The position numbers and the translations under genes are program-made. A model generated the notes under the pieces. The model searched no databases. It was not told where the DNA came from and was given only the letters and a program-made list of their open reading frames with translations. 64,000 bases of DNA from Streptomyces antimycoticus (GTDB lineage: Bacteria > Actinomycetota > Actinomycetes > Streptomycetales > Streptomycetaceae): the NCBI RefSeq assembly GCF_005405925.1, contig NZ_BJHV01000001.1:4092001-4156000 (forward strand). Direction: 5' to 3'. Of this stretch, positions 7,595 to 22,512 are shown piece by piece (position 1 is the stretch's first letter; every line of letters begins with the position of its first letter).

Positions 7595-7627
7595 GCGGTC
7601 GCCCCGGGGGCGCGGTGCGAGACGTTT

Positions 7628-7657
7628 CGAGGGGCCCGGCCTTGGCCGAGCCCCTCG
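7628..7657 (+). terminator. Hairpin terminator after the ribose operon
   Basis: An 8-bp outer stem (CGAGGGGC with GCCCCTCG) and an inner stem (CGGCC with GGCCG) are separated by one mismatch. GTTTCCCC follows. It lacks a T tract, as is usual for Streptomyces terminators, and lies about 60 bp after the rbsD stop. Confidence 0.7.
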
Positions 7658-8013: not shown

Positions 8014-8397
8014 ATGCAGCACGACCACGCCAAGAAGCCCAACCGTCGCCTGCGCCCCTGGATTCTGGGGTCGGCCGCCGGCATCGCCCTGATCGTGGGC
8101 GGGGGCATCGCCGCCCAGGCGGCCACCGGCGACCACTCCGGCCCGGCCAAGCCGGCCCCGGCGGCAACCTCGAAGCCCGAGCCGACCAAGCCCGCGCCCA
8201 CAAAGCCGCCCACCAGCACGCCCGCGCCCACGAAGCCGGCGCCCACCCCGCCCTCCACCAGCGTGCCGGAGCCGACCAAGCCCGCCCCCACCGAGCCGCC
8301 CACCAGCACGCCCGAGCCCACCAAGCCCGCCCCCACCGAGCCGCCCACCAGCGCGCCCGAGCCCACCAAGCCCGCCCCCACCAAGGCCGGTCGCTAG
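8014..8397 (+). CDS. Small membrane-anchored or secreted Pro/Thr-rich repeat protein
   Basis: I do not recognise a named family. The 127-residue product has a basic N-terminus (KKPNRRLRP), one hydrophobic segment at about residues 15-35, and then only Pro, Thr, Lys, Glu and Ser. The tail is built from 15-residue units of the type PEPTKPAPTEPPTST, encoded by 45-bp repeats at 8176-8397 (four complete, one partial). This suggests an extended wall-spanning rod or linker. ATG at 8014 fits the start of the signal segment. Readings from 7780 add an improbable basic sequence. It lies 70 bp upstream of an ECF sigma gene in the same direction and could be its target or partner. Confidence 0.7.
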   Translation: MQHDHAKKPNRRLRPWILGSAAGIALIVGGGIAAQAATGDHSGPAKPAPAATSKPEPTKPAPTKPPTSTPAPTKPAPTPPSTSVPEPTKPAPTEPPTSTPEPTKPAPTEPPTSAPEPTKPAPTKAGR

Positions 8398-8467
8398 CCG
8401 CAACCACGGATGGGGAGGGGCCGGTTCCGGAGCCGGCCCCGCCCCACCGATGAGGTGAACGAGGACG

Positions 8468-9100
8468 ATGCAGCTCACTCTTGTCCTGCCCTGGTGGACC
8501 CGGCTGCTCCGCCGCGCCCGGACGACCGCCTCGACGCCGCCGGTGGAGAGGGAGCGCGCCGGGCGGCGGCTGCGGGCGCTGCGGCCGGTGGGCGGCCGGG
8601 ACGAAGGGGAGCCCGGCCCCACGCTGGCCGATCTGTACCAGGCCCGGCGGCTGGACATGATCCGGCTGGCGGTCTTCCTGGTGGACGACCTGCACACCGC
8701 CGAGGACGTCGTCCAGGACGCCTTCGCCGCCGTCTGCCGTCGGCACGGCTCACGGCTGGACAGCCTCCAGGATGCGCACGCCTATCTGCACACCGCCGTG
8801 GTCAACGCCGCCCGCTCGGTGCTGCGCCGACGGCGTACGGCACGCGCCTACACCCCGCCGTACCAGGGGCCGGGAGCGCCCGTGGACGAGCCGCTGCTGC
8901 TCGCCGAGGAACACCGGCAGGTCCTCGACGCGCTGGCCCGGCTCACCGCGCGCCAGCGCGAGGTGCTGGTGCTGCGCTACTGGTCGGAGCTGACCGAGGC
9001 CCAGATAGCCGAAACGCTGGGCGTCTCCCGAGGCACCGTGAAGTCGACCGCGAGCCGTGCGCTCGTCACTCTGGAAAAGCTGCTGGAGGCGGCCCGATGA
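8468..9100 (+). CDS. ECF-type RNA polymerase sigma factor
   Basis: A 210-residue sigma-70 family regulator of the extracytoplasmic-function class. Residues 1-55 are an unusual Arg-rich extension. Region 2 follows (LYQARRLDMIRLAVFLVDD, then TAEDVVQDAFAAV). Region 4 (LTARQREVLVLRYWSELTEA, then IAETLGVSRGTVKST) carries the helix-turn-helix that reads the -35 element. The ATG at 8468 is preceded by GAGG. The stop overlaps the next gene as ATGA, the usual arrangement for a sigma factor and its membrane-bound controller. It resembles SigE-family factors of Streptomyces, but I cannot name an orthologue. Confidence 0.9.
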   Translation: MQLTLVLPWWTRLLRRARTTASTPPVERERAGRRLRALRPVGGRDEGEPGPTLADLYQARRLDMIRLAVFLVDDLHTAEDVVQDAFAAVCRRHGSRLDSLQDAHAYLHTAVVNAARSVLRRRRTARAYTPPYQGPGAPVDEPLLLAEEHRQVLDALARLTARQREVLVLRYWSELTEAQIAETLGVSRGTVKSTASRALVTLEKLLEAAR

Positions 9101-9456
9101 GCACTCCCCCACCCGTCGAGGACCGGTTGCGCGCCGCGCTCGACGCCCGTGCGCGGCTCATCGACGCCCATGAGCTGTCCCCGTACCGGCCGCCCACCGG
9201 CCCGGCCTGGGGCACCCGGCGGATCCGGCGGGTCGCGTCCGCCGTCGCCGTGGCGGCGGCAGCGGCGGCGGCCGTGGCCTTCCTGCTGCTGTCCGGCTCC
9301 CCGGAGGACAACCGCCCGGCCCCGCCCGCCCGCGACCCCAGCACCTCACCTCCGGCCACCTCGACTCCCTCGTCCAACACGGGGACTCCGACCCAGCCCT
9401 CCCCCACCTCACCGCCCGGACCCCCGACCTCGACCTCCGCCGCCACCCAGGGCTGA
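9097..9456 (+). CDS. Single-pass membrane protein, candidate anti-sigma factor
   Basis: The 119-residue product has a cytoplasmic stretch of about 48 residues (VEDRLRAALDARARLIDAHE) and one very Ala-rich membrane helix near 49-70. The external tail is rich in Pro, Ser and Thr. The 4-base overlap with the sigma gene and the topology suggest that it sequesters the sigma factor at the membrane. It lacks the HxxxCxxC motif of zinc anti-sigma factors, so that role rests on context only. The proline-rich outer part resembles the repeat protein encoded upstream. Confidence 0.7.
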   Translation: MSTPPPVEDRLRAALDARARLIDAHELSPYRPPTGPAWGTRRIRRVASAVAVAAAAAAAVAFLLLSGSPEDNRPAPPARDPSTSPPATSTPSSNTGTPTQPSPTSPPGPPTSTSAATQG

Positions 9457-9475
9457 CGCGATCCCGGCCGCCCCC

Positions 9476-10336
9476 TCAGAGCACCAGCGCCCGATACCGG
9501 TCGGCGACCTCGGCCAGGACCTCCGCGCCGTCCCGGGCCCAGAGGTCCGGGTTGAAGATCTCCACCTCGATCGGGCCGGTGTAGCCCGTGGCGTCGACCT
9601 GTTCGCGGAACCAGCGGAAGTCGACCGATCCGTCGCCGAGTTGGCCCCGGCCCAGGAGGACGCCCTCCGGGAGGGGCGTGATCCAGTCGGCGAGCTGGAA
9701 GGCGGCGATGCGGCCGCCCGCGCCCGCGCGGGCGATCTGGTCCGCCACGGTGTCGTCCCACCACAGGTGGTAGGTGTCCACGATCACGCCCACCTGGTCC
9801 GCCGGGAAGCGCTCGGCCAGGTCGAGGGCCTGGGCGAGGGTGGAGACCACACAGCGGTCGGCGGCGTACATGGGGTGCAGGGGCTCGATGGCCAGGCGGA
9901 CGCCGTGGTCGGCGGCGTACGGGGCCAGCTCGCCCAGTGCGTCGGCGATGCGCTCGCGGGCGGCGAAGAGGTCGCGGCTGCCGGGCGGGAGGCCGCCGGA
10001 GACCAGGACGAGGGTGTCGGTGCCCAGGGTGGCGGCCTCGTCGATGGCCTTACGGTTGTCGGCAAGTGCCGCGGCGCGCGCCTCGGGCTCGATCGCGGTG
10101 AAGAAGCCGCCCCGGCACAGGCTGGTGACGGTCAGGCCCGCGTTCCGCACCAGCTCGGCGGCGGCCGCCACGCCGTACTTCTGGACCGGCTCGCGCCACA
10201 GACCCACGCCTGTGACGCCCGCCTTGACGCAGCCCTCCGCCAGCTCGGGCAGCGACCACTGCTTGATCGTCTCCTGGTTGAGGCTCAGCCGGTTGAGGCT
10301 CAGCCGGTTGAGGCTCAGCCGGGACAAGGCGCTCAT
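9476..10336 (-). CDS. Sugar phosphate isomerase/epimerase (TIM barrel)
   Basis: AP-endonuclease-2-like TIM barrel enzyme, probably isomerising or epimerising a sugar or keto-sugar in the cytoplasm. The 286-residue protein shows barrel motifs GVGLWREPV, LVLVSGGLPPGSRD, RLAIEPLHPMY and VGVIVDTYHLWWDD, with metal-ligand Glu, Asp and His residues. Its N-terminus is unusual: RLSLN is repeated three times, encoded by a perfect 15-bp tandem repeat. The start overlaps the stop of the DUF993 gene as ATGA, so it is the last gene of a three-gene unit with the DUF993 and oxidoreductase genes. Substrate unknown. Confidence 0.85.
   Translation of the reverse strand: MSALSRLSLNRLSLNRLSLNQETIKQWSLPELAEGCVKAGVTGVGLWREPVQKYGVAAAAELVRNAGLTVTSLCRGGFFTAIEPEARAAALADNRKAIDEAATLGTDTLVLVSGGLPPGSRDLFAARERIADALGELAPYAADHGVRLAIEPLHPMYAADRCVVSTLAQALDLAERFPADQVGVIVDTYHLWWDDTVADQIARAGAGGRIAAFQLADWITPLPEGVLLGRGQLGDGSVDFRWFREQVDATGYTGPIEVEIFNPDLWARDGAEVLAEVADRYRALVL
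10276..10320. repeat. Three perfect 15-bp repeats inside the isomerase gene
   Basis: GGTTGAGGCTCAGCC is repeated identically at 10276-10290, 10291-10305 and 10306-10320. It keeps the frame and encodes RLSLN three times near the protein N-terminus. Perfect identity implies recent expansion. Confidence 0.92.
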
Positions 10337-11502
10337 CGGGTGACTCCGTACACGGACAGCAGGTCTTTCATCCGGGATTCCGCCAGCGCCGGGTCCGGGA
10401 ACAGGCCAAGCCCGTCGGCCAGTTCGTACGCCCGCGCCAGATGCGGCAGCGAACGGGCCGACTGCAGGCCGCCGACCATCGTGAAGTGCGACTGGTGGCC
10501 CGCCAGCCAGGCCAGCAGCACCACGCCCGTCTTGTAGTAGCGGGTCGGGGTCCGGAAGAGGTGACGGGAGAGTTCCACCGTCGGGTCCAGCAGCGCCCGG
10601 AAGGCGGTGGCGTCACCGGTGTCCAGCCTGCGCACGGCCTCGGCCGCCAGCGGGCCCAGCGGGTCGAAGATGCCGAGCAGGGCGTGGCTGAAGCCCCGGT
10701 CGTCGCCCTCGATCAGCTCGGGGTAGTGGAAGTCGTCGCCCGTGTAGCAGCGCACCCCGTCCGGCAGTTTGCGCCGCAGATCGATCTCGCGCTGGGCGTC
10801 CAGCAGGGAGACCTTGATGCCGTCGACCTTGTCGGGGTGGGCGGCGATGACGTCGAGGAAGGTACGGGTGGCGGCGTCCAGGTCGGTGCTGCCCCAGTAG
10901 CCCTCCAGCGCCGGGTCGAACATCGGGCCCAGCCAGTGCAGGATCACCGGCTCGGCGGACTGGCGCAGCAGATGGCCGTAGACCTCGGAAAAGTCCTCGG
11001 GGCCCTTGGCCACCGCGCACAGGGCGCGCGAGGCCATCAGGATGGCCTGGGCGCCGGACTCCTCGCAGACGGCGAGCTGTTCCTCGTAGGCGGCCCGGAC
11101 CTCGGCCACGCTGTAGGGGTAGCCGATCTCGGTGGCGGAGAGCTGGTCGGTGCCGACGCCGCAGGCGATCCGGCCGCCGACCGCCTTCGCCTCGGCCGCC
11201 GAGCGGCGGATCAGCTCGGCGGCGCCCGCCCAGTCCAGGCCCATACCGCGCTGGGCGGTGTCCATGGCCTCGGCCACGCCCAGCCCGTGCGACCACAGGT
11301 GGCGGCGGAAGGCCAGGGTGGCGTCCCAGTCCACGGCGGCCGGGCTGTCGGGGGTCACATCGGCGTACGGATCGGCCACCACATGGGCGGCCGAGAAGAC
11401 GACCCGGGAGGTGAAGGGGGCCCCGGGGGTGAGCGACAGCGGCTCGGTGCGGGGTTCGTAGGGGCGGGTCGTGCCGCCCGGCGCGGGGAGGTGGACGGTC
11501 AC
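10333..11502 (-). CDS. DUF993 protein, dihydrodipicolinate synthase-like aldolase
   Basis: A 389-residue protein of the DUF993 family, related to DapA-type TIM-barrel lyases. It probably cleaves or condenses a keto acid derived from the imported sugar. Recognisable stretches are FTSRVVFSAAHVVADP near the start, GLGVAEAMDTAQRGMGLDW, ACGVGTDQL, ILMASRALCAVAKGP and HPDKVDGIKVSLLDA, where Lys may form the Schiff base. The GTG start at 11502 overlaps the stop of the upstream oxidoreductase (GTGA), and its own stop overlaps the isomerase start. Tight coupling of these three genes suggests consecutive steps. The exact reaction is not known. Confidence 0.87.
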   Translation of the reverse strand: MTVHLPAPGGTTRPYEPRTEPLSLTPGAPFTSRVVFSAAHVVADPYADVTPDSPAAVDWDATLAFRRHLWSHGLGVAEAMDTAQRGMGLDWAGAAELIRRSAAEAKAVGGRIACGVGTDQLSATEIGYPYSVAEVRAAYEEQLAVCEESGAQAILMASRALCAVAKGPEDFSEVYGHLLRQSAEPVILHWLGPMFDPALEGYWGSTDLDAATRTFLDVIAAHPDKVDGIKVSLLDAQREIDLRRKLPDGVRCYTGDDFHYPELIEGDDRGFSHALLGIFDPLGPLAAEAVRRLDTGDATAFRALLDPTVELSRHLFRTPTRYYKTGVVLLAWLAGHQSHFTMVGGLQSARSLPHLARAYELADGLGLFPDPALAESRMKDLLSVYGVTR

Positions 11503-12659
11503 AGGCTCAGCTCCGGCACGTCGAACCGGCGGCCCTCGGCCGACGACTTCAGGCCCAGCTCGGCGAGCTGGACGCCGCGCGCCCCGGCCAGCAGGTCCCA
11601 GCGCCAGGGCTCGTCGAGCGCGACATGGCGCAGGAAGAGCTCCCACTGCGCCTTGAAGCCATTGTCGAACTCCTCGTTGTCCGGCACCTCCTGCCACTGC
11701 TCGCGGAAGGACTCGGTGGCGGGCAGATCGGGGTTCCAGACCGGCTTGGGGGTGGCCGAGCGGTGCTGGGCGCGGCAGTTGCGCAGCCCCGCGACGGCCG
11801 AGCCCTCGGTGCCGTCGACCTGGAACTCGACCAGCTCGTCGCGGCCCACCCGGACCGCCCAGGAGGAGTTGATCTGGGCGATGGCGCCGCCCTCGAGCTG
11901 GAAGACGCCGTAGGCCGCGTCGTCGGCGGTGGCCTCGTACGGCTTGCCCTGCTCGTCCCAGCGGGTCGGGATGTGGGTGGTGGCCTGCGCCTGGACGGTG
12001 CGCACGGCGCCGAACAGCTCGTGCAGCACGTACTCCCAGTGCGGGAACATGTCGACGACGATGCCGCCGCCGTCCTCGGACCGGTAGTTCCACGAGGGCC
12101 GCTGGGCGCTCTGCCAGTCGCCCTCGAAGACCCAGTAGCCGAACTCCCCGCGCACGGAAAGGATTCTGCCGAAGAAGCCGCCGTCGATGAGGCGCTTGAG
12201 CTTCAGCAGCCCCGGCAGGAAGATCTTGTCCTGGACGACCCCGTGCTTGACGCCCGCCGCCTCGGCGAGCCGGGCCAGCTCCAGGGCGCCTTCCAGACCG
12301 GTGGCGGTCGGCTTCTCGGTGTAGATGTGCTTGCCCGCCGCGACGGCCTTCTTGATGGCCTCCTCGCGGGCGGCGGTGACCTGGGCGTCGAAGTAGATGT
12401 CGACGCGGTCGTCCGCGAGCACGGCGTCCAGGTCGGTCGAGACATCCGCGACCGGGTCGAGGCCATGGCGCTCGGCCATCTCCTTGAGCACGTGCTCCCG
12501 GCGGCCGACGAGCAGCGGCTCGGGCCACAGCACGGTGCCGTCGCCGAGGTCCAGGCCGCCCTGTTCGCGAAGGGCGAGGAGAGAGCGGACGAGGTGCTGG
12601 CGGTAGCCCATTCGGCCGGTCACACCGTTCATGGCGATCCGCACTGTCTTGCGTGTCAC
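11499..12659 (-). CDS. Gfo/Idh/MocA family sugar oxidoreductase
   Basis: NAD(P)-dependent dehydrogenase of sugars or inositol-like polyols. The 386-residue product has an N-terminal Rossmann fold (VRIAMNGVTGRMGYRQHLV), the EKPTATG segment with the family's catalytic Lys near residue 120, and the C-terminal beta-sheet domain. Here the usual glycine-rich loop reads NGVTGRMG. The GTG start at 12659 has GAGGAGAA eight bases upstream, whereas longer starts have no binding site. It is the first gene of a three-gene unit. An AAGCGCTT operator lies about 35 bp before the start. Confidence 0.88.
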   Translation of the reverse strand: MTRKTVRIAMNGVTGRMGYRQHLVRSLLALREQGGLDLGDGTVLWPEPLLVGRREHVLKEMAERHGLDPVADVSTDLDAVLADDRVDIYFDAQVTAAREEAIKKAVAAGKHIYTEKPTATGLEGALELARLAEAAGVKHGVVQDKIFLPGLLKLKRLIDGGFFGRILSVRGEFGYWVFEGDWQSAQRPSWNYRSEDGGGIVVDMFPHWEYVLHELFGAVRTVQAQATTHIPTRWDEQGKPYEATADDAAYGVFQLEGGAIAQINSSWAVRVGRDELVEFQVDGTEGSAVAGLRNCRAQHRSATPKPVWNPDLPATESFREQWQEVPDNEEFDNGFKAQWELFLRHVALDEPWRWDLLAGARGVQLAELGLKSSAEGRRFDVPELSL

Positions 12660-12689
12660 GTGGGTTCTTCTCCTCACCGCGAGTAACAG

Positions 12690-12700
12690 TAAGCGCTTTC
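12690..12700. promoter_or_regulatory. LacI-type operator before the oxidoreductase-DUF993-isomerase unit
   Basis: TAAGCGCTTTC contains the perfect palindrome AAGCGCTT at 12691-12698. It lies 32 bp upstream of the GTG at 12659. Nearly the same site occurs at 21294-21304 beside the LacI-family gene, so both are probably bound by that regulator. Confidence 0.6.
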
Positions 12701-12776
12701 TAAGCATTAACGCTAACTGCCCCGCCCCGCCCCTGTACAGAGCGAACACGGGGGCGAACGCGGGACAGTCAGCGCT

Positions 12777-14573
12777 TCAGCGCAGTGTCAGCCGATAGCG
12801 CAGGGGCGAACGCCCGGTGATCAGGACCCGCTGTCCCGCCGGGGTCAGATCGCCGGCCATCCAGCTGTAGCGCTCGCCGGAGTCCACGACGGCGGGCTGG
12901 CGCGGGCCGCTGCCGTTGCCGGGCCCGAAGGTGATCACGTCATCGCCCGCCGTATATGTCCCGTACCCCTTGACCAGCTGATACGTGTCCTTCTGGCCGG
13001 GCACGGGGTCGACCCCGGTCAGCTTCCCGCCGCCGCGGAAGCACAGTTCGAGGGCGAACGGGACCTCGGACTCGCCGATCTCGACGTCCAGGTTCCAGCC
13101 GCCGTCGGCCTCCGCGATCCGCACCTCGGTGCGCAGGGTGCGCCACTCCTTGGGGCGGTGCGGAAAGTCCATCGCGGACCAGAACCGCCCGTCGTCCGTC
13201 AGCGGATACCGCCCGTCGGGGCGGCGGTGCTGGGGCGGCAGCGGCAGATGGTATCCGGCCCGCACCTCGGCCCACAGCCGCCAGCCGTCCGCCGTGCGCT
13301 CCACGTCCTCGGCCCGGAAGTGGCCGAGCGAGAAGAACTGCGGGGACAGCCGGAGCGAGTCCAAGATGGCCGCGCCCTTGCGCCATTTGAAGAACGTCGG
13401 GTTGGTGGACAGGCCCGAGGAAATCGCGTGGACGTCAGGGAAGTCGGTGCCGCCGAAGACGGTGGTCCGGGTGTCCCCCTTCGCGATCCGCACCAGCCCG
13501 CAGTCCCGGTCGTGGAAGGTGAACTCCCCGGGCGCCCCAGTGGTCTTGGGCAGCGGCGCGGCCAGCTCCGGATGGTCCAGCACCTCGGCCAGGAAGTCCC
13601 CGAGCGGGGTCTCGTCGAAGGTCTGGTCCGCCCCGCGCCGCTGGATGGTGGCGGCGACGGCCGCGAACCGCCCGTCCCGCTCCCGCAGCGCCAGCGCCCG
13701 GAACTGCAGCCAGTACTCGGACAGATGCTTGAGGGTCTTCTGGTCCTGGCGGCGCGAATGCACCGTCTCCACCTCGCCGTTCGGCTCCAGGAGGTGCAAG
13801 GTGGCTTCCAGGTTGCGGCGCACATGGTCGTACAGCCGCGGGCGCTCGGTGAGCCGGGCGAGGGTCAGCAGCGACGGGTTGGTGACGATGGGCGCGTAGG
13901 TGGCGCTGCGCTCGCTGTACTGGCCGCTGTCGTACTGGTCGATGCCCTCGGCCAGCCAGGCGTCGATACGGCGGGTGAAGCGGGCGTCGGGCCAGAAGGA
14001 GTTGATGCGGGCCAGCGCGGCGCACACCTTCCAGCGGTGGTTGGGGGTGTGCACCCCGCCGGTGGACAGGCCCTTGCCCGCCTTGAGCAGGATCGTCTTC
14101 AAGGTGGCGCGGATCGCCCGGGTGCCGGTGTGGCCGTCCGCGTCCAGCAGGCCGTACACCAGGCCCAGATCGACGATCGAGAAGGCGGTGTCCGGGGGCG
14201 AGTGGACCGCGCCCTGGTCGTAGAGGCCGTCGTCGAACTGGGCGGCGGCCAGCGCGTCCACGAGCCGGGTCATCGGCGCGATCAGCGCGCCGTCGTGGTG
14301 GTGGGCGGCGTCGCCCCACACATGGACGGAGGTGAGCAGCCGCAGGCCGCGGGCGGCGGGGCGGGCCTGGCCGAGGTTGTTGAGCTGGTCGAGGACCGCG
14401 TCGAGCCCGTCCACGACCTCGGCCACCCGGGCGTCGGCCGCCTCGGTGAGCAGGGCCAGGAACGGCTTGTCGACCCGGCTCGCGGCCGAGGCGGCACCCG
14501 GAGCGCCGACGGCCAGCAGCCCGCCCGCGACGGCGGTCCCGGCGAGGAAGTGACGGCGGGGCAGGGGTGTCAT
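12777..14573 (-). CDS. Tat-exported polysaccharide lyase/heparinase-like protein
   Basis: A 598-residue extracytoplasmic protein. The N-terminus is a Tat signal (RRHFLAGTAVAGGLLAVG, cleavage near ASAAS at about 30). The first half is all-helical and looks like an alpha/alpha toroid. It includes VHTPNHRWKVCAALARIN, whose Asn-His-Arg-Trp resembles active-site segments of alginate-lyase or heparinase-type enzymes. The second half is beta-rich, like the sandwich of those enzymes. I infer glycan depolymerisation outside the membrane, feeding the adjacent ABC importer, but I cannot name the substrate or PL family. Its ribosome binding site GGAG lies inside a 23-bp duplication. Confidence 0.68.
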   Translation of the reverse strand: MTPLPRRHFLAGTAVAGGLLAVGAPGAASAASRVDKPFLALLTEAADARVAEVVDGLDAVLDQLNNLGQARPAARGLRLLTSVHVWGDAAHHHDGALIAPMTRLVDALAAAQFDDGLYDQGAVHSPPDTAFSIVDLGLVYGLLDADGHTGTRAIRATLKTILLKAGKGLSTGGVHTPNHRWKVCAALARINSFWPDARFTRRIDAWLAEGIDQYDSGQYSERSATYAPIVTNPSLLTLARLTERPRLYDHVRRNLEATLHLLEPNGEVETVHSRRQDQKTLKHLSEYWLQFRALALRERDGRFAAVAATIQRRGADQTFDETPLGDFLAEVLDHPELAAPLPKTTGAPGEFTFHDRDCGLVRIAKGDTRTTVFGGTDFPDVHAISSGLSTNPTFFKWRKGAAILDSLRLSPQFFSLGHFRAEDVERTADGWRLWAEVRAGYHLPLPPQHRRPDGRYPLTDDGRFWSAMDFPHRPKEWRTLRTEVRIAEADGGWNLDVEIGESEVPFALELCFRGGGKLTGVDPVPGQKDTYQLVKGYGTYTAGDDVITFGPGNGSGPRQPAVVDSGERYSWMAGDLTPAGQRVLITGRSPLRYRLTLR

Positions 14574-14616
14574 CGGTGATGCTCCGTGGCTCTCATAGAT
14601 GGTGCTCCGTGGCTCT
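14571..14616. repeat. 23-bp tandem duplication between DUF624 and lyase-like genes
   Basis: Positions 14571-14593 and 14594-14616 match at 20 of 23 bases, with GCTCCGTGGCTCT identical in both. The duplication spans the end of the DUF624 gene and the ribosome binding site and start of the lyase-like gene. Confidence 0.8.
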
Positions 14617-15177
14617 GGCGGCGATCGCGAGGGGGCCGGGGACGAGGAAGAGCAGCGGCGGATAGGCCCAGGCGCAGACGGCGGCGGTGGCGACGGCCAG
14701 CAGCAGCACGGCGCTGGCGCGGGGCCCGCGCACGCCGGCGTACGCCGCCGAGCGGAGCGCGGCCCGCCAGCTCGTCGCCGACTCGGGGCGGGCGCAGGCC
14801 CGCAGATAGACGACGGCGAGCAGTCCGGCCACGGCGAGCAGCGCGGGCCGGAAGACCACCGCGCCCGGCAGCCCCGCGCCCGCCGCGAGCGCGTTGAACA
14901 GCAGCAGGACGCCGCCGGCCAGCATGCCCGCCCCGGCCAGCAGATCGCCGGTGCGCAGCCGTTGGCGCAGCGCGCGGAGGTAGCCGCCCGCCGTGGTGGG
15001 CGCGTCCTGGCGCACCCGCCGGTCCAGGACGGCGCAGGCCGTGGACATGGCGGCCGGGGCGGTGATCAGCGGCAGCGAGGCGGCGGCCGTGGCCAGGCCC
15101 ACCGCCAGGACGTCGGCGAAGAGGGCGAAGCGCGGGCCGAACAGCTCGCCGGGTTCACGTTTGGTGGCGGTGTCCAT
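14593..15177 (-). CDS. DUF624 (YesL-like) membrane protein
   Basis: A 194-residue polytopic membrane protein with about four or five hydrophobic segments, such as VLAVGLATAAASLPLIT and AGAGMLAGGVLLLFNAL. DUF624/YesL proteins are regular companions of sugar ABC importers for plant or animal polysaccharides, and their function is unknown. The gene begins 6 bp after the stop of the second permease and ends 19 bp before the lyase-like start, so it belongs to the transport operon. Confidence 0.84.
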   Translation of the reverse strand: MDTATKREPGELFGPRFALFADVLAVGLATAAASLPLITAPAAMSTACAVLDRRVRQDAPTTAGGYLRALRQRLRTGDLLAGAGMLAGGVLLLFNALAAGAGLPGAVVFRPALLAVAGLLAVVYLRACARPESATSWRAALRSAAYAGVRGPRASAVLLLAVATAAVCAWAYPPLLFLVPGPLAIAARATEHHL

Positions 15178-15183
15178 GGCCGG

Positions 15184-16065
15184 TCACCCCTTCAGTCCGG
15201 AGCTGGCCATGCCCTCGACCAGGAACCGCTGGAAGGCGAGGAAGAAGAGCACGATGGGCAGCAGCGCGAACACCGACATCGCGAACATCGGGCCGAAGGC
15301 CGACTGGCTGGAGGCGTCCACGAAGGACCGCAGGGCCAGGGTCAGGGTGAACTTCTCCGGCTCGAAGAGATAGATGAGCTGGGTGAAGAAGTCGTTCCAG
15401 GTCCAGATGAAGGTGAAGATCGCGGTGGTGATCAGGGCAGGCCGGGTCAGCGGCAGGATGACGCTGAAGAACGAGCGGAAGGGCCCGCACCCGTCGATCC
15501 GCGCCGCCTCCTCCAGCTCACGCGGCAGTCCGCGCATGAACTGCACGATGAGGAAGACGAAGAAGGCGTCGGTGGCCAGGAACTTCGGCAGGATCATCGG
15601 CCAGTAGGTGTTCACCATGCCGAGCTGGTTGAAGATGATGTACTGCGGAATGAGGATGGCGTGGTGCGGCAGCATGATCGTCGCGATCATGAACGCGAAG
15701 AGCGGACCGCGCATCTTGAACCGCAGCCGCGCGAAGGCGTACGCGGCGAGCGAGCAGCTGATGACGTTGCCGAGCACCGCGCCGCACGCGATGAGCAGCG
15801 AGTTCCACAGCAGCCGTCCGACGCTGACCTCGTTCACCCCGTCCAGGGCGGTGGAGTAGTTGCTCCATTCGAAGTGGCTGGGCAGCAGCTTGAGGCTGGC
15901 GATGACCTCGTCGGCGGGCTTGAACGAGGTCGCCAGCAGCCAGGCCAGCGGATAGAGCATCACCAGCAGCACGGCGATCAGGCAGGCGTGCAGCGCGATC
16001 CGGCCCGCGGGCCGCCGCCGCGCCGCCGGGCCGGCCGGGGCGGTGGAGATCGGGGCGGTGGTCAT
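15184..16065 (-). CDS. Carbohydrate ABC transporter permease (MalG type)
   Basis: Inner-membrane permease subunit of a CUT1-type sugar importer. The 293-residue product has six predicted helices and the cytoplasmic EAA loop (EEAARIDGCGPFRSFFSVIL) that docks the ATPase. The ATG at 16065 overlaps the stop of the first permease as ATGA. No ATPase gene is in the cluster, so a shared MsiK-type ATPase encoded elsewhere probably energises it, as is usual in Streptomyces. Confidence 0.93.
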   Translation of the reverse strand: MTTAPISTAPAGPAARRRPAGRIALHACLIAVLLVMLYPLAWLLATSFKPADEVIASLKLLPSHFEWSNYSTALDGVNEVSVGRLLWNSLLIACGAVLGNVISCSLAAYAFARLRFKMRGPLFAFMIATIMLPHHAILIPQYIIFNQLGMVNTYWPMILPKFLATDAFFVFLIVQFMRGLPRELEEAARIDGCGPFRSFFSVILPLTRPALITTAIFTFIWTWNDFFTQLIYLFEPEKFTLTLALRSFVDASSQSAFGPMFAMSVFALLPIVLFFLAFQRFLVEGMASSGLKG

Positions 16066-17023
16066 CGGCCCCCCTCGTTGTTGTCGTTGGCGTAGAAGAC
16101 CCAGGCCCGGGAGGTGCGGAAGAGCACCGCGGTGACGACCCCGATGGCCAGCAGCAGCGCCCAGGCCATGGCGGAGGCGTAGCCCATATGGGAGGCGGTG
16201 AAGCCGCGGTCGTAGAGGTAGAGCGTGTAGACCAGCGTGGAGTCGGCGGGTCCGCCCTTGCCCGCGCTGACCGCGAAGGCGGGGGTGAAGACCTGGAACG
16301 CCTGGATCATCTGGAGCACCAGGTTGAAGAAGAGCACCGGGGAGAGCATCGGGATGGTGATGGAGCGGAACTGCCGCCACCAGGAGGCCCCGTCGACCGC
16401 GGCCGCCTCGTACAGCTCCACGGGTATCTGCTGAAGCCCGGCCAGGAAGATCACCATGGGGGCGCCGAACTGCCAGATGGTCAGCAGCGCGACCGACAGG
16501 ATGGCCCAGCCCGGCTTGTTGATCCAGCCGCCGATGTCGATGCCCATACCGGAGAGCAGATTGTCCACCGAGCCGCCGTCGTTGAAGATCGCCCGCCAGA
16601 CCAGGGCGATGGACATCGACGCGCCGAGCAGCGAGGGCGCGTAGAACGCCGAGCGGTAGAAGCCCTTGCCGCGCTTGACCGACTTCAGCGCGATGGCGAC
16701 GGCGAGCGCCATGGCGAGCTGCAGGGGCACCGCGATCACGACATACGTCAGGGTCGTGATGACCGACCGCCAGTAGCGGGGGTCCTCGGTGAACATCTGC
16801 GTGTAGTTGCGGAGGCCGATCCACTGGGGCGCGTCGAACATGTCGTAGTCGGTGAACGACAGATACAGGGACACGGCCATGGGCAGCAGCGTCAGCACGG
16901 CGGCGCCGAGCACCCATGGGGACAGGAACACCCAGGCGGCCCCCTGCCGCTCGCGCTTCGGCGCCCGCTTGCCGCCGGTGGCGGGGGCGCGGCGTCCTGG
17001 GGGCGGGTCGCGGTCGCGGTCAT
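16062..17023 (-). CDS. Carbohydrate ABC transporter permease (MalF type), apparent N-terminal frameshift
   Basis: Partner permease of the CUT1 importer. The body from 16931 to 16062 is intact: first helix FLSPWVLGAAVLTLLPMAVS and EAA loop EAAAVDGASWWRQFRSITIP. The expected start, an ATG at 17023 overlapping the binding-protein stop (ATGA), reads MTATATRP in a different frame. Adding one base to the G5 run at 16999-17003 (C5 on the coding strand) joins it to PGRRAPATGGKRAPKRERQG and the first helix, giving 320 residues. Otherwise translation would have to start at GTG 16931 with almost no cytoplasmic N-terminus. A base-calling error is likely. Confidence 0.84.
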
Positions 17024-18309
17024 TGCCTCAGCTCCGCCTTCGCCTCGGTGATGTAGTTCTCCGCCGCCTCGCGCGGCGACAAGCGCTCGTAGCTGACCTG
17101 GTCGTAGTCGCGCGAGAAGGTGGACTGCAGGGAGGTGTCACCCTTGGGCGGCGCGGGCGGCGGGTCGTTCAGCTTGCCCTCGAACTGCTTCTGGTACGTG
17201 GAGATGACCTGGTCGAAGCCCTCCAGCTTGGGCAGGACGCCCTGCCGGATGGTGTCGTTGGCCGGGATGCCGCGGGAGGCGCCGAGGATGGCGCCCGCCT
17301 CCTTGTCGTTGAGCAGGAAGTCGATGAACTGGGCCGCCTGCTTGGGGTGTCCGGTCTTGGCCGAGGCACCGAAGAACATCGACGGCTTGAAGTACTGCCC
17401 GGGGGTGCCGTCCTCGCCGACCGGGAACGGTGCCAGCTTCAGCCCCTCGCCGACGATGGCCGAATAGCCGCTGACGGGGGCGTCCCAGTTGAAGTCGGCG
17501 ACAGACTTCAGCCGACCCAGCGGGGTGTTCTCCACCGTGCCGTCCATCTGGGTGGTCTGCTCGGCGGACGAGACCGCCCCCTCCTTGCGCAGCCCCGTGC
17601 ACCACTCCCAGTAGCGGGTCAGATCGTCGGCGGTGAAGCCGAGCTTCTCGTCCTTGGTGTAGAGGGACTTGCCCCGGCTGCGCAGCCAGATCTCGAAGAC
17701 GTCCTCGCTCTGGCCCGGGTCGGTGGAGCCGACCCGCCCCTTCGTCGCCGGGGACGCCGCCAGCTTGCGCATCGCGTCGGCCCAGTCGTTCCAGGTCCAG
17801 GTCAGGGTCGGTTCGGGGACGCCCGCCTTGCGCCACAGCGTGGCGTCGTACGCCATCGTCTCGGTGCCGCGGGCCACCGGGAGCGCGTACTGCTTGCCGT
17901 CCACTACCCCGGTGGCCAGCAGCCCCTTGTCGATCTCCGAGGTGCGCAACTCGGGGTGTTTGCCGAGGTTCAGCAGGATGCCGGAGGTGGCGTACTGGTT
18001 GATCTGCCGGTAGTCCAGCTGCATCACATCGGGGGCGTCGCCGCCCGCCGCCTGCGTGGCCAGCTTCGCCTTGTAGGTGTCGAAGCCCGCGAAGGACGTG
18101 CTGATGTCGATGTCGGGATGGTGCTTCTCGAAGAGCCCCACGGCCTCTTCGGTGCGGGCGGCCCGGTCGGGGTTTCCCCACCAGGTGAACCGCAGGCTGA
18201 CCTTGCCGCCCGAGCCGCCGCCGCCATCGCCGCCGCAGCCCGTGAGAGTCCCCCCGAGCGTGAGCACGAGAGCCAGGGCGCAGGACGCCTTTGTCCTGTT
18301 TCTGCGCAT
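17020..18309 (-). CDS. Sugar ABC transporter substrate-binding lipoprotein
   Basis: Extracellular solute-binding protein (family 1) that captures the oligosaccharide and delivers it to the two permeases. The 429-residue precursor starts MRRNRTKASCALALV and has lipobox LTGC near residue 24, so it is lipid-anchored. The mature part has the SBP fold with FTWWGNPDRAARTEEAV and APDVMQLDYRQINQYA. The start at 18309 has AGGAGGGAGG upstream. It leads the transport genes: binding protein, two permeases, DUF624, then lyase-like protein, all closely spaced or overlapping. Confidence 0.94.
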   Translation of the reverse strand: MRRNRTKASCALALVLTLGGTLTGCGGDGGGGSGGKVSLRFTWWGNPDRAARTEEAVGLFEKHHPDIDISTSFAGFDTYKAKLATQAAGGDAPDVMQLDYRQINQYATSGILLNLGKHPELRTSEIDKGLLATGVVDGKQYALPVARGTETMAYDATLWRKAGVPEPTLTWTWNDWADAMRKLAASPATKGRVGSTDPGQSEDVFEIWLRSRGKSLYTKDEKLGFTADDLTRYWEWCTGLRKEGAVSSAEQTTQMDGTVENTPLGRLKSVADFNWDAPVSGYSAIVGEGLKLAPFPVGEDGTPGQYFKPSMFFGASAKTGHPKQAAQFIDFLLNDKEAGAILGASRGIPANDTIRQGVLPKLEGFDQVISTYQKQFEGKLNDPPPAPPKGDTSLQSTFSRDYDQVSYERLSPREAAENYITEAKAELRQ

Positions 18310-18376
18310 ACCGGAGCCGACCTCCCTCCTGAATTCCGTTGAGCGTATGAGCGTGCGTGGTGGTGTTCTACGGCGG

Positions 18377-19135
18377 CTATTCGCCGTAGTACGGGAGCGT
18401 GACACCCGGCAGTTCGTACTCGTCCCGGCGGCCGCACATGCCGTAGCCGCCCCGGCGGCTGGGCCCGGTCGCGGTGACCCGCGCCTCGGCCAGATGCGAG
18501 GGGTCGCCCGCGGCGAGCGCGGTGAGCTGCTCACCGGTGCGCCGCGCGGCGGCGAGCGCCCCATCCCGCCAGCGCGGCTCCCACTCCTTCACCTTGGGCG
18601 CGGCGATCCGCACCGCCGCCTCGTGGAAGGCGCGCAGCGGTCCCTCGTCGCCGCTCTCGGCGGCGGCCCGCAGCGTCAGATAGCCCTCGATCGCCAGGTC
18701 CCGGCGGCGCCGGGCGGCCGCGTCGGCCTCCGGCCCCTCCTTGGCGGGCAGCGCGGCGGCCGCCGCGTACCGCTCGGGGTCGGCCAGCACCTCGGGCGGG
18801 AAGGTGAAGACGGCGTCCCCGGCCTCCGGCAGCCCGCTGTTCTGCATCAGCACGGTCACCTTGAGGCCGCCGCCCTGCACCATCCGGTGCACCGTGCCGG
18901 GGGTGAACCACACCACCGCGCCCGGCTCCAGCGGGGTCTCGGTGAAGCCGTCCCCGACGGTCAGGGTCTGCACGGCGCCGCGACCGGCGGTGACCACATA
19001 CGCCTCGGTGCAGGCCAGATGGAGATGGGGGCTGCCGCCGCACACGCCGTCGGCGGCCTCCCACTCGTACGCGCTGATGTGGGACATCCCCACGCCACCC
19101 GGCAGCGGGGCGAACATCTCGCTCATCCGGCTCAC
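18377..19135 (-). CDS. Cupin-domain protein
   Basis: A protein of about 252 residues. Residues 1-100 are a cupin barrel with the metal motif GGSPHLHLACTEAYVVTAG and second box PGTVHRMVQGGG. The C-terminal half is helical and not recognised, ending in GRRDEYELPGVTLPYYGE. It may bind or isomerise a sugar acid, or act as a sensor. The GTG at 19135 overlaps the stop of the DUF6807 gene (GTGA), and ATG at 19126 is an alternative start. It lies 67 bp upstream of the binding-protein gene in the same direction. Confidence 0.8.
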   Translation of the reverse strand: MSRMSEMFAPLPGGVGMSHISAYEWEAADGVCGGSPHLHLACTEAYVVTAGRGAVQTLTVGDGFTETPLEPGAVVWFTPGTVHRMVQGGGLKVTVLMQNSGLPEAGDAVFTFPPEVLADPERYAAAAALPAKEGPEADAAARRRRDLAIEGYLTLRAAAESGDEGPLRAFHEAAVRIAAPKVKEWEPRWRDGALAAARRTGEQLTALAAGDPSHLAEARVTATGPSRRGGYGMCGRRDEYELPGVTLPYYGE

Positions 19136-20106
19136 CACCCGTGGTTCTTGAGGTAGCCCTCGGCGCGCGCCCGGTCCCAGGCGCCGTCGGCGACCACCAC
19201 CCGGTAGCGGTAGCCGAAGGACTCCCCCGGGGGAAGCTCGAACTCCTCGAAGAACGCCCAGGAGGGGGCGACCGAGGGGATCGGCTCGGAGCGCACGAAC
19301 CAGTGGGAGGCGTGGATGGATTCAGTGTTGTCGAGGTTTTCCGGCGCGTGCGCGAACAGCAGCGTGGAGTGCCCGTCCACGCCGTCGTGCTCACCGGTGA
19401 AGGCGACCCAGGGGGCCTCGGCGGCCGGGGTGCCCATCAGGTCGGAGGCGCCCTTCTCGCCCTCGCCGCCGCGCCCGTCCGGGCCGATCACGTCGCCGCC
19501 GGTGAAGTCGCGCGGGCCGCGCCAGTTGAGCCCGGTGTATCCGGCCATCTCCCGGCCGGCGGTGGTCGGGGAGCCGAAGTGCAGGGCCTCGCCGCGGATG
19601 TTGGTGAGGCGGATGGACCAGTCCAGGGCCCAGGTGCCCTCCTCCGGTTCCACCGAGTGGAGTTCGATGGTGCGCACCTCGCGCGCCCACTCCTGGCCAC
19701 CGCTGTGTTGTACAGAAGGATTGGCGACCCATGTGAGGTTCTCCACGAAGCGCAGCCGGTCGTCCGCGACCGCGAACTCCTCGAAGCCGTCGTGGCGCAT
19801 CGAGCCCACGCGCTCCTCGACATGCTGGTAGCCCTGCTCGGGACCGAGGTAGGAGTTGCCGCCCCAGAAGTTCTGGCCGGACAGATGGCTGGAGGTCATC
19901 TGCAGGCCCTTGTGCCAGCGGTGGTCGCTGGGCCGGTAGCCGGAGACCGGGTTCCCGGCGAGGGTGCGCAGCGGGTGGGCGTAGGGCTTACGGGCCTCGA
20001 AGGCTTCCGGGTCGGGCCGGTAGACGTAGGCCATCAGCTCGACGCCGCCGGAGGCGACCGAGATCCGTGTCCCGTGGGTGTGCGTGACGGTGATGTGCTG
20101 GGTCAT
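19132..20106 (-). CDS. DUF6807 (PmoA-like) family protein
   Basis: A 324-residue all-beta protein of the DUF6807 family, often annotated as methane oxygenase PmoA although it is unrelated to methane oxidation. Family-like segments are ELMAYVYRPDPEAF, RPYAHP-type (KPYAHPLRTLAG), PSDHRWHKGL and FFEEFELPPGESFGYRYRV. These proteins are usually encoded beside Gfo/Idh/MocA oxidoreductases in glycan-use loci, as here. The ATG at 20106 lies 7 bp after the upstream oxidoreductase stop. Biochemical role unknown. Confidence 0.84.
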   Translation of the reverse strand: MTQHITVTHTHGTRISVASGGVELMAYVYRPDPEAFEARKPYAHPLRTLAGNPVSGYRPSDHRWHKGLQMTSSHLSGQNFWGGNSYLGPEQGYQHVEERVGSMRHDGFEEFAVADDRLRFVENLTWVANPSVQHSGGQEWAREVRTIELHSVEPEEGTWALDWSIRLTNIRGEALHFGSPTTAGREMAGYTGLNWRGPRDFTGGDVIGPDGRGGEGEKGASDLMGTPAAEAPWVAFTGEHDGVDGHSTLLFAHAPENLDNTESIHASHWFVRSEPIPSVAPSWAFFEEFELPPGESFGYRYRVVVADGAWDRARAEGYLKNHGW

Positions 20107-20113
20107 GGCGGCC

Positions 20114-21270
20114 TCAGCTCTCCTTGGTGGTGGCGGTCGCTGCCTTCGGCGCCCAAGCGGGGTGGTTGCCGTGCATGGCGTCGTAGTACGGGTCCCCGGG
20201 CACGATCTCGCCCGCGCGCACGGGCTGCCCGGTGAAGGCCGCCTTGTAGAGCGCGGCGATGAACTCGAGGGTGCGGCGGGCGTCCTGGCCGCTGCCGGGG
20301 GCCGTACGCCGTCGCGTATCGCGTCCAGCAGCCCGGTCAGCTGGGCCCCGTGCGAGCTGGGCAGATCGGCGGCCGGGGTGCGCCAGCGCTGCTGCCGGGC
20401 GGGCTCGTCGCGGAGGTGCGGCGCGGGGGTGTAGACCCAGTCGTCGTTGCGGTGGCCGTAGAGATGGGTCAGCTCGACGGTGGCGTCCGCGCAGTCGATG
20501 CGGATCCGGCTGACCTCGTCGGGCGAGAGCACGCTGTTGACGACGGTGGCCATAGCGCCGTTCGCGAACCGCACCAGCGCGGTGGACACGTCCTCGCTCT
20601 CCACCTCGTGGATCAGCCGTCCGGCCATGCCGCGGATCTCGGTCCAGTCGCCGAGGAGATGGAGCAGCAGATCCATCTGGTGGATGCCGTGGCCCATCGA
20701 GGGGCCGCCGCCCTCGGTCTCCCAGCGGCCGCGCCACGGCACCGCGTAATAGGCGGTGTCGCGGTGCCAGGTGGTCTGGCAGTGGGCCACCAGCGGCTGC
20801 CCCAGGGCGCCCTCGGCCAGCAGCTCGCGGGCGTGGACGGCGCCCGAGCCGTAGCGGTGCTGGAAGACCACCGAGGCGTACGGACCGCCCGCCTCCCGCT
20901 CGGCCGCGGCTATCTCGTCGTACTCGGCGAGCGTGAGGCACAGCGGCTTCTCGCACAGCACCCAGGCGCCGGCCTTCAGCGCGGCCACCGTCTGCTCGCG
21001 GTGCAGGGAGGGCGGGGTGCCGATGAGGACCAGATCGGGGCGTTCGGCCTCCAGCATGGCCGCCACATCGGAGTAGCCGGTGACGGCGAAGGTGCCGCCT
21101 TCGGCCGCCGCGGCGCGGAAGGCATCGAGTCGGTCGGCGGCCACGTCGACCGCGGCGACGAGGTCCACACGGTCGGCGTGATCACGTAGTGCGGGCAGAT
21201 GGCTGCCGGTGACGATTCCTCCGGTGCCGACCACTGCGGCACGGATACGGGCGGTGGCTGCTGCGGCCAT
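20114..21270 (-). CDS. Gfo/Idh/MocA family oxidoreductase, apparent frameshift
   Basis: NAD(P)-dependent sugar oxidoreductase and the first gene of the main operon. The Rossmann start ([19 protein letters not shown]), the [13 protein letters not shown] segment with the catalytic Lys and [16 protein letters not shown] are clear. After AIRDGVRPP the frame breaks. One extra base in the G5 run at 20297-20301 restores [20 protein letters not shown] and the end [11 protein letters not shown], 385 residues in all, stopping at 20114 just before the DUF6807 start. Left as written, the frame would fuse it to the DUF6807 protein, which is an artefact. GAGGAG precedes the ATG at 21270. Confidence 0.86.
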
Positions 21271-21293
21271 GGGCTGAGGCTCCTCGCCGGGGG

Positions 21294-21304
21294 TAAGCGC
21301 TTGC
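21294..21304. promoter_or_regulatory. LacI-type operator in the divergent promoter region
   Basis: TAAGCGCTTGC with the perfect core AAGCGCTT at 21295-21302. It lies 24 bp before the oxidoreductase start at 21270 and upstream of the divergent LacI-family gene at 21454. It is the best candidate for the cluster's main operator. Confidence 0.65.
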
Positions 21305-21453
21305 TGGGGAGGACCCTAGGCATGGTCCGGATGACAGGACAAGACCCTGGACGGCAGAATCGCGCCGCTCATGGAGTGAGAGCATGGGAGCGCCAACCAG
21401 TGCGCGCGGTGTCCCAGAAGGTGACCATCGGGTGACCATCCAACGGAGGAAAC

Positions 21454-22512
21454 ATGGCAGTGACCCTGGCCGATGTGGCGGCACGGGCTCGGGTCTCGGC
21501 GGCCACCGTGTCGCGTGTCCTGAGTGGCAACTACCCCGTCGCGGAGTCGACCCGGACCCGGGTGCTGCGCGCGGTCGATGAGCTGGAATACGTGGTCAAC
21601 GGCCCGGCAAGCGCTCTCGCCGCCGCCACCTCCGATCTGGTCGGGGTACTCGTCAACGACATCGCGGACCCCTTCTTCGGCATCATGGCGGGCGCCGTAC
21701 AGGCCGAGATGGGCGCACCCGCGGGCGAACCGGGCCGCGGCGCCGAGAAGCTCGCGGTCATCTGCAACACCGGCGGTTCGCCCGAGCGCGAGCTGAACTA
21801 CCTCACCCTGCTGCAGCGGCAGCGCGCCGCCGCCGTCGTGCTCACCGGCGGCGCGGTCGAGCACCCCGACCACGCCGCCGCCGTGGCCACCAAGGCGTCC
21901 CGGCTGGCCGCGTCCGGCACCCGGGTGGTGCTGTGCGGCCGCCCGCCGATCGCGGACGCGACCACCCTCACCTTCGACAACCGCGGCGGCGCCCGCCGCC
22001 TCACCGAACATCTGCTGACCCTCGGCCACCGCCGCATCGGCTATGTCGCGGGCCCCGCCGAGCGCACCACGACCCGCCACCGGCTGGAGGGCCACCGGGC
22101 GGCGCTCAGCGCCGCCAAAGTGAACAGTCTCGACACCGACATGGAGCGGCTCACCGTGCACGGCCTGTACGACCGCGCCTCCGGCTATGACGCGACCCTC
22201 GAACTGCTGCGCCGCGACCGGGGGTTGACGGCCATAGTCGCCGCCAACGACACCATCGCGCTCGGCGTCTGCGCGGCCCTGCGCGACCAGGGCCTGCGGA
22301 TCCCCGAGGACGTCTCGGTCGCGGGCTTCGACGACCTTCCGTTCAGCGCGGACGCGGTCCCGGCCCTCACCACGATGCGGCTGCCGCTGCACGAGGCGGG
22401 CGCCCGGGCCGGGCGCCTGGCCCTGGGCCGCGAGCCGCAGCCGCCGGGCGGGGTGGCGATGGTCCGCGCCGAACTGATGGCTCGCGCCTCGACGGCCCCG
22501 CCGCGCGGCTGA
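21454..22512 (+). CDS. LacI-family regulator of the catabolic cluster
   Basis: A 352-residue LacI/GalR regulator. The N-terminal helix-turn-helix (TLADVAARARVSAATVSRVL) is followed by the hinge and a sugar-sensing domain (GVLVNDIADPFFGIMAGAVQ; IVAANDTIALGVCAAL; VAGFDDLPFS). It is transcribed divergently from the operon it most likely represses, with the AAGCGCTT palindrome in between. Start ATG at 21454 is preceded by GGAGGAAAC. No break is seen in this gene, in contrast to the LacI gene of the ribose operon. Confidence 0.92.
   Translation: MAVTLADVAARARVSAATVSRVLSGNYPVAESTRTRVLRAVDELEYVVNGPASALAAATSDLVGVLVNDIADPFFGIMAGAVQAEMGAPAGEPGRGAEKLAVICNTGGSPERELNYLTLLQRQRAAAVVLTGGAVEHPDHAAAVATKASRLAASGTRVVLCGRPPIADATTLTFDNRGGARRLTEHLLTLGHRRIGYVAGPAERTTTRHRLEGHRAALSAAKVNSLDTDMERLTVHGLYDRASGYDATLELLRRDRGLTAIVAANDTIALGVCAALRDQGLRIPEDVSVAGFDDLPFSADAVPALTTMRLPLHEAGARAGRLALGREPQPPGGVAMVRAELMARASTAPPRG

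Follow-up and report, generated by a model that had tools for sequence, protein, structure and literature searches.

A composite LacI-linked cluster in Streptomyces antimycoticus and its probable role in uronic-acid catabolism

Which compound is taken up and broken down by a gene cluster in which several proteins belong to families without a known reaction? This question is raised by positions 9,476 to 22,512 of a 64,000-nucleotide stretch of Streptomyces antimycoticus DNA (RefSeq assembly GCF_005405925.1, contig NZ_BJHV01000001.1, positions 4,092,001 to 4,156,000 of the forward strand), here called the window. A first-pass annotation had read the cluster as one for sugar import and catabolism that includes a LacI regulator and oxidoreductases, a description that our analysis supports, and had proposed an "unusual sugar or sugar acid" as its substrate. 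With a probability of about 0.68, we consider the cluster to be a LacI-repressed operon through which plant cell-wall oligosaccharides containing uronic acids, most probably those of pectin, are taken up and degraded inside the cell, because of the operator regulon seen in relatives, a solute-binding protein (SBP) resembling YesO and TogB, and the lyase fold of a putatively exported protein. The same three lines of evidence support, in direction, the sugar acid of the earlier proposal, whereas "unusual" is probably wrong, since pectin-type substrates are common.

Gene content and composite build

The following features were assigned.

9476..10336, minus strand: TIM, a xylose-isomerase-like TIM barrel (AP_endonuc_2; Pfam, 164 bits; PDB sequence search)
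10333..11502, minus strand: DUF993 protein (Pfam, 602 bits; relative of the solved structure 4dnh)
11499..12659, minus strand: Gfo1, a Gfo/Idh/MocA oxidoreductase (Pfam; relative of 3oqb)
12689..12700, minus strand: second LacI-type operator, GAAAGCGCTTAC, directly 5' of gfo1
12777..14573, minus strand: lyase-like protein, putatively exported by the twin-arginine translocation (Tat) pathway (weak Tat signal; AlphaFold model of heparinase II/III type)
14593..15177, minus strand: small membrane component of the transporter, resembling MusI/DUF624 (NCBIfam MusI and DUF624, both below cut-off)
15184..16065, minus strand: ABC permease 2 (Pfam)
16062..16931, minus strand: ABC permease 1, its N terminus frame-broken here (Pfam; length versus relatives)
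17020..18309, minus strand: extracellular SBP (Pfam; solved matches)
18377..19138, minus strand: cupin-like protein of 253 aa (weak Cupin_2)
19132..20106, minus strand: DUF6807 ("PmoA family"), a mutarotase-like beta-sandwich by model (Pfam; structure model)
20107..21270, minus strand: Gfo2, a Gfo/Idh/MocA oxidoreductase, frame-broken here (intact copies in relatives)
21293..21304, minus strand: LacI-type operator, GCAAGCGCTTAC, between a promoter-like TTGTCC (~21337) and gfo2
21454..22512, plus strand: LacI-family regulator, divergent (Pfam)

Pfam and open-reading-frame (ORF) scans confirmed the LacI regulator, the SBP, both permeases, both Gfo/Idh/MocA proteins, DUF6807, DUF993, and TIM at these coordinates, lacI being the sole plus-strand gene and the minus-strand order being gfo2, DUF6807, cupin, SBP, permease 1, permease 2, MusI/DUF624-like, lyase-like, gfo1, DUF993, and TIM. 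The start of gfo1 is most likely the GTG at 12659 (386 aa, as called in the related loci L081, L083, and L159) rather than position 12749. The small membrane protein annotated earlier as DUF624 is present, but its match is subthreshold (13.4 bits versus a Pfam cut-off of 24.2), as is that to its closest NCBIfam model, MusI (46 versus 160 bits); the cupin gene, likewise, is there, but its Cupin_2 score of 24.7 bits falls under the cut-off of 27.2. For the "Tat-exported lyase-like" protein, the weak Tat signal and the structure model speak in favor of the name, but no Pfam lyase domain, or any Pfam domain apart from that signal, was found. None of the 10 cluster proteins scanned reached a curated NCBIfam cut-off, in keeping with the earlier remark on families without a known reaction, and domain scans detected no glycoside hydrolase (GH) domain among the operon proteins. 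At its N terminus, TIM has a short RLSLN tandem repeat, and it exceeds its counterparts in L081 to L084 by 10 residues.

The window belongs to the S. violaceusniger group, which holds the best DUF6807 loci (L151 to L160), and its genome comprises 11.2 Mb in three contigs. Genes in other genomes were called by a home-made codon-position score, which missed, e.g., the lyase gene in L152 and L153, MusI and permease 2 in L082, and gfo2 in L289; neighbor tallies based on this calling are lower bounds. The full gene order recurs in four relatives (L081 to L084, with 83 to 99% protein identity and some L082 genes not called) and is therefore not due to chance. While the genes do lie together, as claimed earlier, comparison of gene neighborhoods indicates a composite of three separable units: [LacI | Gfo1-DUF993-TIM] (unit A), [Gfo2-DUF6807-cupin], and [SBP-permease-permease-MusI-like-lyase-like]. 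A single old cluster was ruled out, since the parts are found apart in other genomes.

Unit A is the best-delimited of these parts. In all 17 other Streptomyces loci (L031 to L047, read at up to 20 kb), Gfo1, DUF993, and TIM are contiguous, and in 13 of these 17 insert-free loci a LacI orthologue (67 to 79% identical) is directly divergent from gfo1, while a gene of the Gfo2 unit or of the transporter-lyase block adjoins unit A in none (0/17). Three of them (L031, L035, and L038) have the window's own flanks, with a ribose-type (rbs-type) operon on one side and a MarR/GNAT gene on the other; the site that is empty in these relatives is therefore filled in the window, both other units standing between lacI and gfo1 in the window's clade.

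The other units lead lives of their own. [Gfo2-DUF6807-cupin] occurs at many loci without unit A, with or without a transporter; among 70 loci (L161 to L230), a cupin was found in 57 and permeases in 37, within six genes. The transporter-lyase block, in turn, stands without Gfo2 in L085, L089, and L090. Outside the clade, the Gfo2 unit is joined to Gfo1 in Actinacidiphila (L202, three genes only), Streptomyces TP-A0874 (L161), Halosaccharopolyspora (L182), and Amycolatopsis (L218 and L226, with DUF993 elsewhere in those genomes), and in three genomes from outside Streptomyces (L144, L147, and L150), a lyase-like protein (36.8 to 37.8% identity) is encoded no more than six genes from unit A. 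On the Gfo1 tree, the fused state requires four changes, at least three of them by supported branches; on the Gfo2 tree, it requires three and is compatible with a single origin, gains and losses not being separated. Among 61 relatives, 48 have DUF993; for Streptomyces, the count is 33 of 37 genomes, and across the phylum it is 46 of 398. The gene was found in 50 of 50 genomes with a Gfo2 unit (taken from the best 80 loci), versus the 33 of 37 for Streptomyces in general, and this co-occurrence alone is weak evidence. The 80 loci were the best of a DUF6807 profile search of genome contigs, the matches listed being Streptomycetaceae and three Pseudonocardiaceae loci; distant neighborhoods were therefore taken from further genomes and plasmid records.

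The LacI-type operator and its regulon

A 12-bp LacI-type operator, GAAAGCGCTTGC or its reverse complement, is common to parts of the cluster that stand apart. Its core, AAGCGCTT, occurs in all 18 LacI-Gfo intergenic regions examined, mostly as AGAAAGCGCTTGCT and 3' of promoter-like hexamers, and separate gfo2 genes mostly carry the reverse complement, GCAAGCGCTTTC. Composites included, 68 of 80 gfo2 upstream regions contain the core. Outside the Streptomyces composites, the exact 12-mer precedes 33 of 61 gfo2 genes versus 17 of 906 other genes of those loci; 15 of these 17 are divergent neighbors of the unit, and 2 are DUF6807 genes where gfo2 was not called. Where the transporter-lyase block stands without Gfo2, the operator is found upstream of the SBP gene (4/4; L085, L089, L090, and L100). 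Judging from these sites, each part, when separate, mostly bears the same LacI-type operator.

The window carries both copies, before gfo2 and before gfo1, the latter (12689-12700) at the operator's place in insert-free loci. Of 15 composite loci examined, 13 retain this gfo1 operator. It is truly missing in L081 and L083, where the spacer between the lyase gene and gfo1 is a different one, even though L081 is, in Gfo1, the window's nearest relative. With units placed between a regulator and its target and both operators kept in most composites, the cluster offers a clear case of operon assembly. A ~40% paralogue of the lyase-like protein, apparently without a signal peptide, is found in the transporter operons of L092 to L099 (with a ROK regulator where scanned); the exact operator words are missing in 8 of 8 such ROK-linked loci, L099 having a near match, and the paralogue may, to go by its sequence, act in the cytosol. 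In L095, it is adjoined by a 618-aa protein without a Pfam match.

In 24 other Streptomyces genomes, chosen from 50, GAAAGCGCTTGC occurred 124 times versus 9 times for a reversed control pattern, and a site lay <4 kb from DUF993 in 21 of the 24. Twenty sites were read, from S. coeruleorubidus (8 of 9), S. viridochromogenes (5 of 6), S. cyaneochromogenes (6 of 7), and S. cyaneus (1 of 9), the one unread site of each of the first three genomes being that of unit A; for every set of targets, one or two members were scanned with Pfam, while the PL1 protein of L280, the PL3-like proteins of L280 and L285, and the proteins of L282 and L287 were judged by N-terminal likeness. Four of the 20 sites lie at Gfo2-DUF6807 units (including a paralogue and a unit whose gfo2 was not called) and two at a third Gfo gene, itself divergent from several lyase operons. 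Pectinase genes follow: PL1 pectate lyase at three sites in three genomes, succeeded by PL3 where scanned and, in two of the three, faced by GH62 or a CBM2-esterase; PL4 rhamnogalacturonan lyase, together with a GDSL esterase, at two sites in two genomes; and, at one site, a gene without a Pfam match, then PL11. GH115, a weak beta-helix protein, and an SBP-permease operon account for one site each, and DUF6250 for two. Both DUF6250 proteins (L276, 4051-4767, the one scanned, and L282, 4030-4743) have apparent export signals.

In relatives, therefore, transporter, catabolic genes, and pectinases carry one shared operator, a regulon that suggests uronic-acid oligosaccharides as substrates, pectic ones in the first place and glucuronoxylan in the second. 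A limited literature search, PMC10766802 included, yielded no description of a comparable pectin regulon in Streptomyces. The presence of PL4 and PL11 also brings to mind the LacI-type RhaR regulon predicted for Actinomycetales, in which case the operon would serve the rhamnose of rhamnogalacturonan I; RhaR is described for rhamnose and rhamnose oligosaccharides (PMC3870299). We regard this as very unlikely. No rhamnose isomerase, kinase, or aldolase model was among the operon protein matches. Moreover, PL1, PL3, and GH115 are not known to release rhamnose.

Proteins and a candidate uronate route

The transport protein and the lyase-like protein point the same way as the regulon. The best solved matches of the SBP in a PDB sequence search were 4ovj, YesO (5z6b), 4r6k, 4ry1, and TogB-type 2uvh; YesO of Bacillus subtilis and TogB of Yersinia bind pectic oligosaccharides and serve in their uptake. 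The cluster shares with these uptake systems the SBP family, the combination of a lyase-fold enzyme with ABC import and, in relatives, an operator common to pectinases. In contrast to them, the operon has no GH105/GH88 or KduI/KduD-type match, is preceded by a LacI-type operator, and encodes a lyase-like protein whose fold class differs from that of the usual pectinases. The AlphaFold model of that protein has the (alpha/alpha) toroid and beta-sandwich of heparinase II/III-type lyases, enzymes with a catalytic Asn/His/Tyr set, and N178, H179, Y219, and Y226 are invariant in 37 of 37 lyase-like sequences (positions not superposed on known lyases). Identity to PL15, PL17, PL33, GAGase, and chondroitinase is ~8 to 13%, outside any Pfam family, and a PDB sequence search gave one chance match only.

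How the glycosidic bonds would be cut in an operon lacking glycoside hydrolase domains is a matter of mechanism within the uronate reading, not of another substrate. One possibility is 3-keto beta-elimination, in which Gfo2 would make a 3-keto uronide, TIM would eliminate, and Gfo1 would reduce or oxidize. Gfo2 has 81 solved matches, DgpA and a glucuronide-3-dehydrogenase among them, and a DUF6250 protein at an operator site weakly resembles a 3-keto-disaccharide hydrolase (20.1 bits versus a cut-off of 26.8). In addition, Gfo/Idh/MocA oxidoreductases together with a sugar-phosphate-isomerase-type TIM form the set described for the oxidation-elimination-hydration-reduction pathways of levoglucosan (LgdA-B1-B2-C; PMC7676230) and AtOGE (PMC10628242). 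Unlike those pathways, the operon encodes one TIM protein rather than two (a count within the operon) and adds DUF993, DUF6807, the cupin, and the lyase-like protein; of these, the elimination scheme leaves DUF993, DUF6807, and the cupin unexplained. Gfo1 also lies far below the cut-off of the levoglucosan dehydrogenase model NF052479 (64.9 bits, and 56.2 for the Gfo2 ORF, versus 650). We entertain 3-keto cleavage tentatively, as somewhat doubtful.

The remaining enzymes carry databank names that say little or mislead. DUF6807 is named "PmoA/methane oxygenase," while its model has a galactose-mutarotase-like fold with invariant H44, H65, H105, and E143 (not superposed on mutarotases) and ~8 to 11% identity to galactose mutarotases and the PL26 beta-sandwich domain; a PDB sequence search with the 326-aa query gave no match, and one with the cupin gave weak chance matches only. 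On plasmid pTC2 of Paenarthrobacter aurescens TC1, typed as conjugative, a hypothetical protein of ~1,450 residues (L235, 10793-15145) follows a Gfo-DUF6807-cupin unit. DUF993, named "dihydrodipicolinate synthase family" in NCBI records, has two lysines, K230 and K324, that are invariant in 21 of 21 sequences, and we infer that it may be an aldolase. It and TIM have rhizobial relatives of solved structure, SMc04130 (3ju2), beside 7vpf and 3qc0, for TIM and 4dnh, which we take to be SMc04132, for DUF993. In PMC12542648, SMc04132 and SMc04133, the latter listed as a putative oxidoreductase, are merely entries in a table of PhaR-affected genes. Literature searches on DUF993, DUF6807, the rhizobial loci, glucuronide-3-dehydrogenase, the PmoA family, and the enzyme combinations found no paper on this system or on DUF993, and DUF6807 only in passing.

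Genome context fits a role in uronate use. Searches covering the S. antimycoticus genome gave no UxaC match (a control search matched in 7 of 14 genomes) and, as the sole KduI-family match, IolB (273.7 bits, cut-off 205), beside IolD. In non-Streptomyces loci, one member of each set being scanned, KdgD-type, galactarate-dehydratase-like, and aldehyde dehydrogenase genes stand beside unit A in 4 of 23 cases and glycerate kinase in 5 of 23.

Taken as a scheme, the uronate reading would run as follows. The LacI protein would bind the operator and be released by a uronate-type metabolite. Outside the cell, the lyase-like protein would cut an acidic glycan, and the SBP and permeases would import the oligosaccharide; the operon has no ATPase, so that the transporter would presumably rely on the shared ATPase MsiK. 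Gfo2 would then oxidize the uronyl residue, probably at C3, and DUF6807 and the cupin would act on the ring or anomer, after which Gfo1, TIM, and DUF993 would oxidize or isomerize the sugar acid and split it into C3 units by lysine-type aldol cleavage, a route standing in for UxaC and KduI. The specific version, an undescribed Streptomyces route with 3-keto oxidation by Gfo2, opening by DUF6807 and cupin, steps by Gfo1 and TIM, DUF993 as a nonphosphorylating aldolase, C3 products entering metabolism via glycerate kinase or similar, and one LacI tying it all to secreted pectinases, is a speculation that we think rather unlikely. Still, the shared operator ties DUF993, DUF6807, a lyase-fold family outside Pfam, and a third Gfo to a concrete class of substrates, which makes their reactions assayable on a short list of compounds and suggests a way in which uronic acids might be used by a Streptomyces that has neither UxaC nor KduI.

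Evidence against, and alternative substrates

Several observations weigh against a pectic uronate operon. The sites read are only 20 of 124, from 4 of 24 genomes, and for 3 of the 20 no connection is apparent. In the S. antimycoticus genome itself, a looser pattern gave 11 rows (8 distinct places) versus 6 control rows, i.e., little enrichment, and no recognized pectinase was found at any of the 8 places: the cluster itself accounts for two, another lies ~310 bp 5' of a GH43 gene, two precede SBP genes, and the other three fall within or next to other ORFs. The pectinase link thus rests on relatives, not on the window's own genome. Furthermore, AAGCGCTT is a common LacI-type core, so that other LacI proteins could use the same sites, and of 23 loci outside Streptomyces, only 4 (L048, L050, L134, and L150) have it 5' of gfo1.

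The state of the window's copy is a further concern. Compared with close relatives in alignments, a single-base difference shifts the C terminus of Gfo2 to another frame and merges Gfo2 and DUF6807 into one ORF (19132-21270, minus strand). A Gfo2-DUF6807 fusion enzyme was ruled out, the ORF being the product of the frame break and the two genes being separate in L081 to L084. Permease 1 has a single-base break near its start (16932-17020) and a length of 289 aa, versus 320 to 321 aa in 13 of 13 composite relatives. Both breaks, which are missing from the close relatives compared, may reflect either a decaying copy or indel or assembly errors. Together with an SBP called as two pieces in relative L159, they could mean that the operon is decaying and nonfunctional in this strain. 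We consider this unlikely, since the remaining cluster genes are open and the nearest relative, L081 (95 to 99% identical), has separate gfo2 and DUF6807 genes and a full-length permease 1; assembly error, too, typically gives single-base breaks.

Findings on DUF993 belong here as well. Its profile comparison with KdgD/DHDPS by hhalign was not significant (probability of 0.6%, E of 0.09, with thin alignments of 21 and 4 rows and Neff of ~2), although K230 was aligned with the KdgD lysine. In 4 of 6 plasmid regions read, coenzyme A (CoA)-transferase and enoyl-CoA hydratase genes lie near DUF993, some of these regions also having short-chain dehydrogenase/reductase (SDR), acyl-CoA dehydrogenase, and electron-transfer flavoprotein (ETF) genes. 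Such neighborhoods, seen in rhizobia and Caballeronia (L231, L234, L237, and L238, partly with acyl-CoA dehydrogenase and ETF), are possibly a CoA-dependent variant; the uronate scheme leaves them unexplained. Together with an L-arabinonate dehydratase locus described below (L113), they suggest that the general chemistry may be wider than uronates. The CoA-related neighborhoods would suit unit A as a cyclitol or polyol pathway (IolG/IolE-like) merely coregulated with pectin genes, and both Gfo proteins do match the NCBIfam model IolG, although far below cut-off. We nonetheless find a cyclitol pathway improbable, in view of the operator shared with pectinases in relatives, the uronate/aldarate-type genes beside unit A in non-Streptomyces loci, and the presence of iolB and iolD elsewhere in the genome.

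A more serious contender comes from the side chains of xylan, namely 4-O-methyl-glucuronic acid or L-arabinose, with pectinases sharing the regulator since walls are degraded together. GH115 and GH62 at operator sites fit glucuronoarabinoxylan too, as does the L236 plasmid, on which a xylanase and GH62 lie beside Gfo-DUF6807-cupin, and Gfo2 is weakly similar to pentose 1-dehydrogenases. A sister cluster in the S. antimycoticus genome (L112, C1:126001-146000; 7461-16961) has the order Gfo2-DUF6807-SBP-permease-permease-MusI, without a cupin and with its own divergent LacI, and at its end a beta-glucuronidase-like GH2 and GH67 replace the lyase. A second locus of that genome (L113, C1:2912001-2932000; 7754-15978) couples a distant Gfo-DUF6807 pair with an ABC transporter, an L-arabinonate dehydratase, and a DHDPS-family gene. 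Even so, four pectin-lyase families (PL1, PL3, PL4, and PL11) at or next to operator sites, an SBP near YesO and TogB, and a lyase-fold enzyme in the operon make a xylan substrate, in our view, the less probable choice, and we favor pectic uronic-acid oligosaccharides. Apart from this choice, L113 suggests that DUF6807 partners Gfo sugar dehydrogenases more widely.

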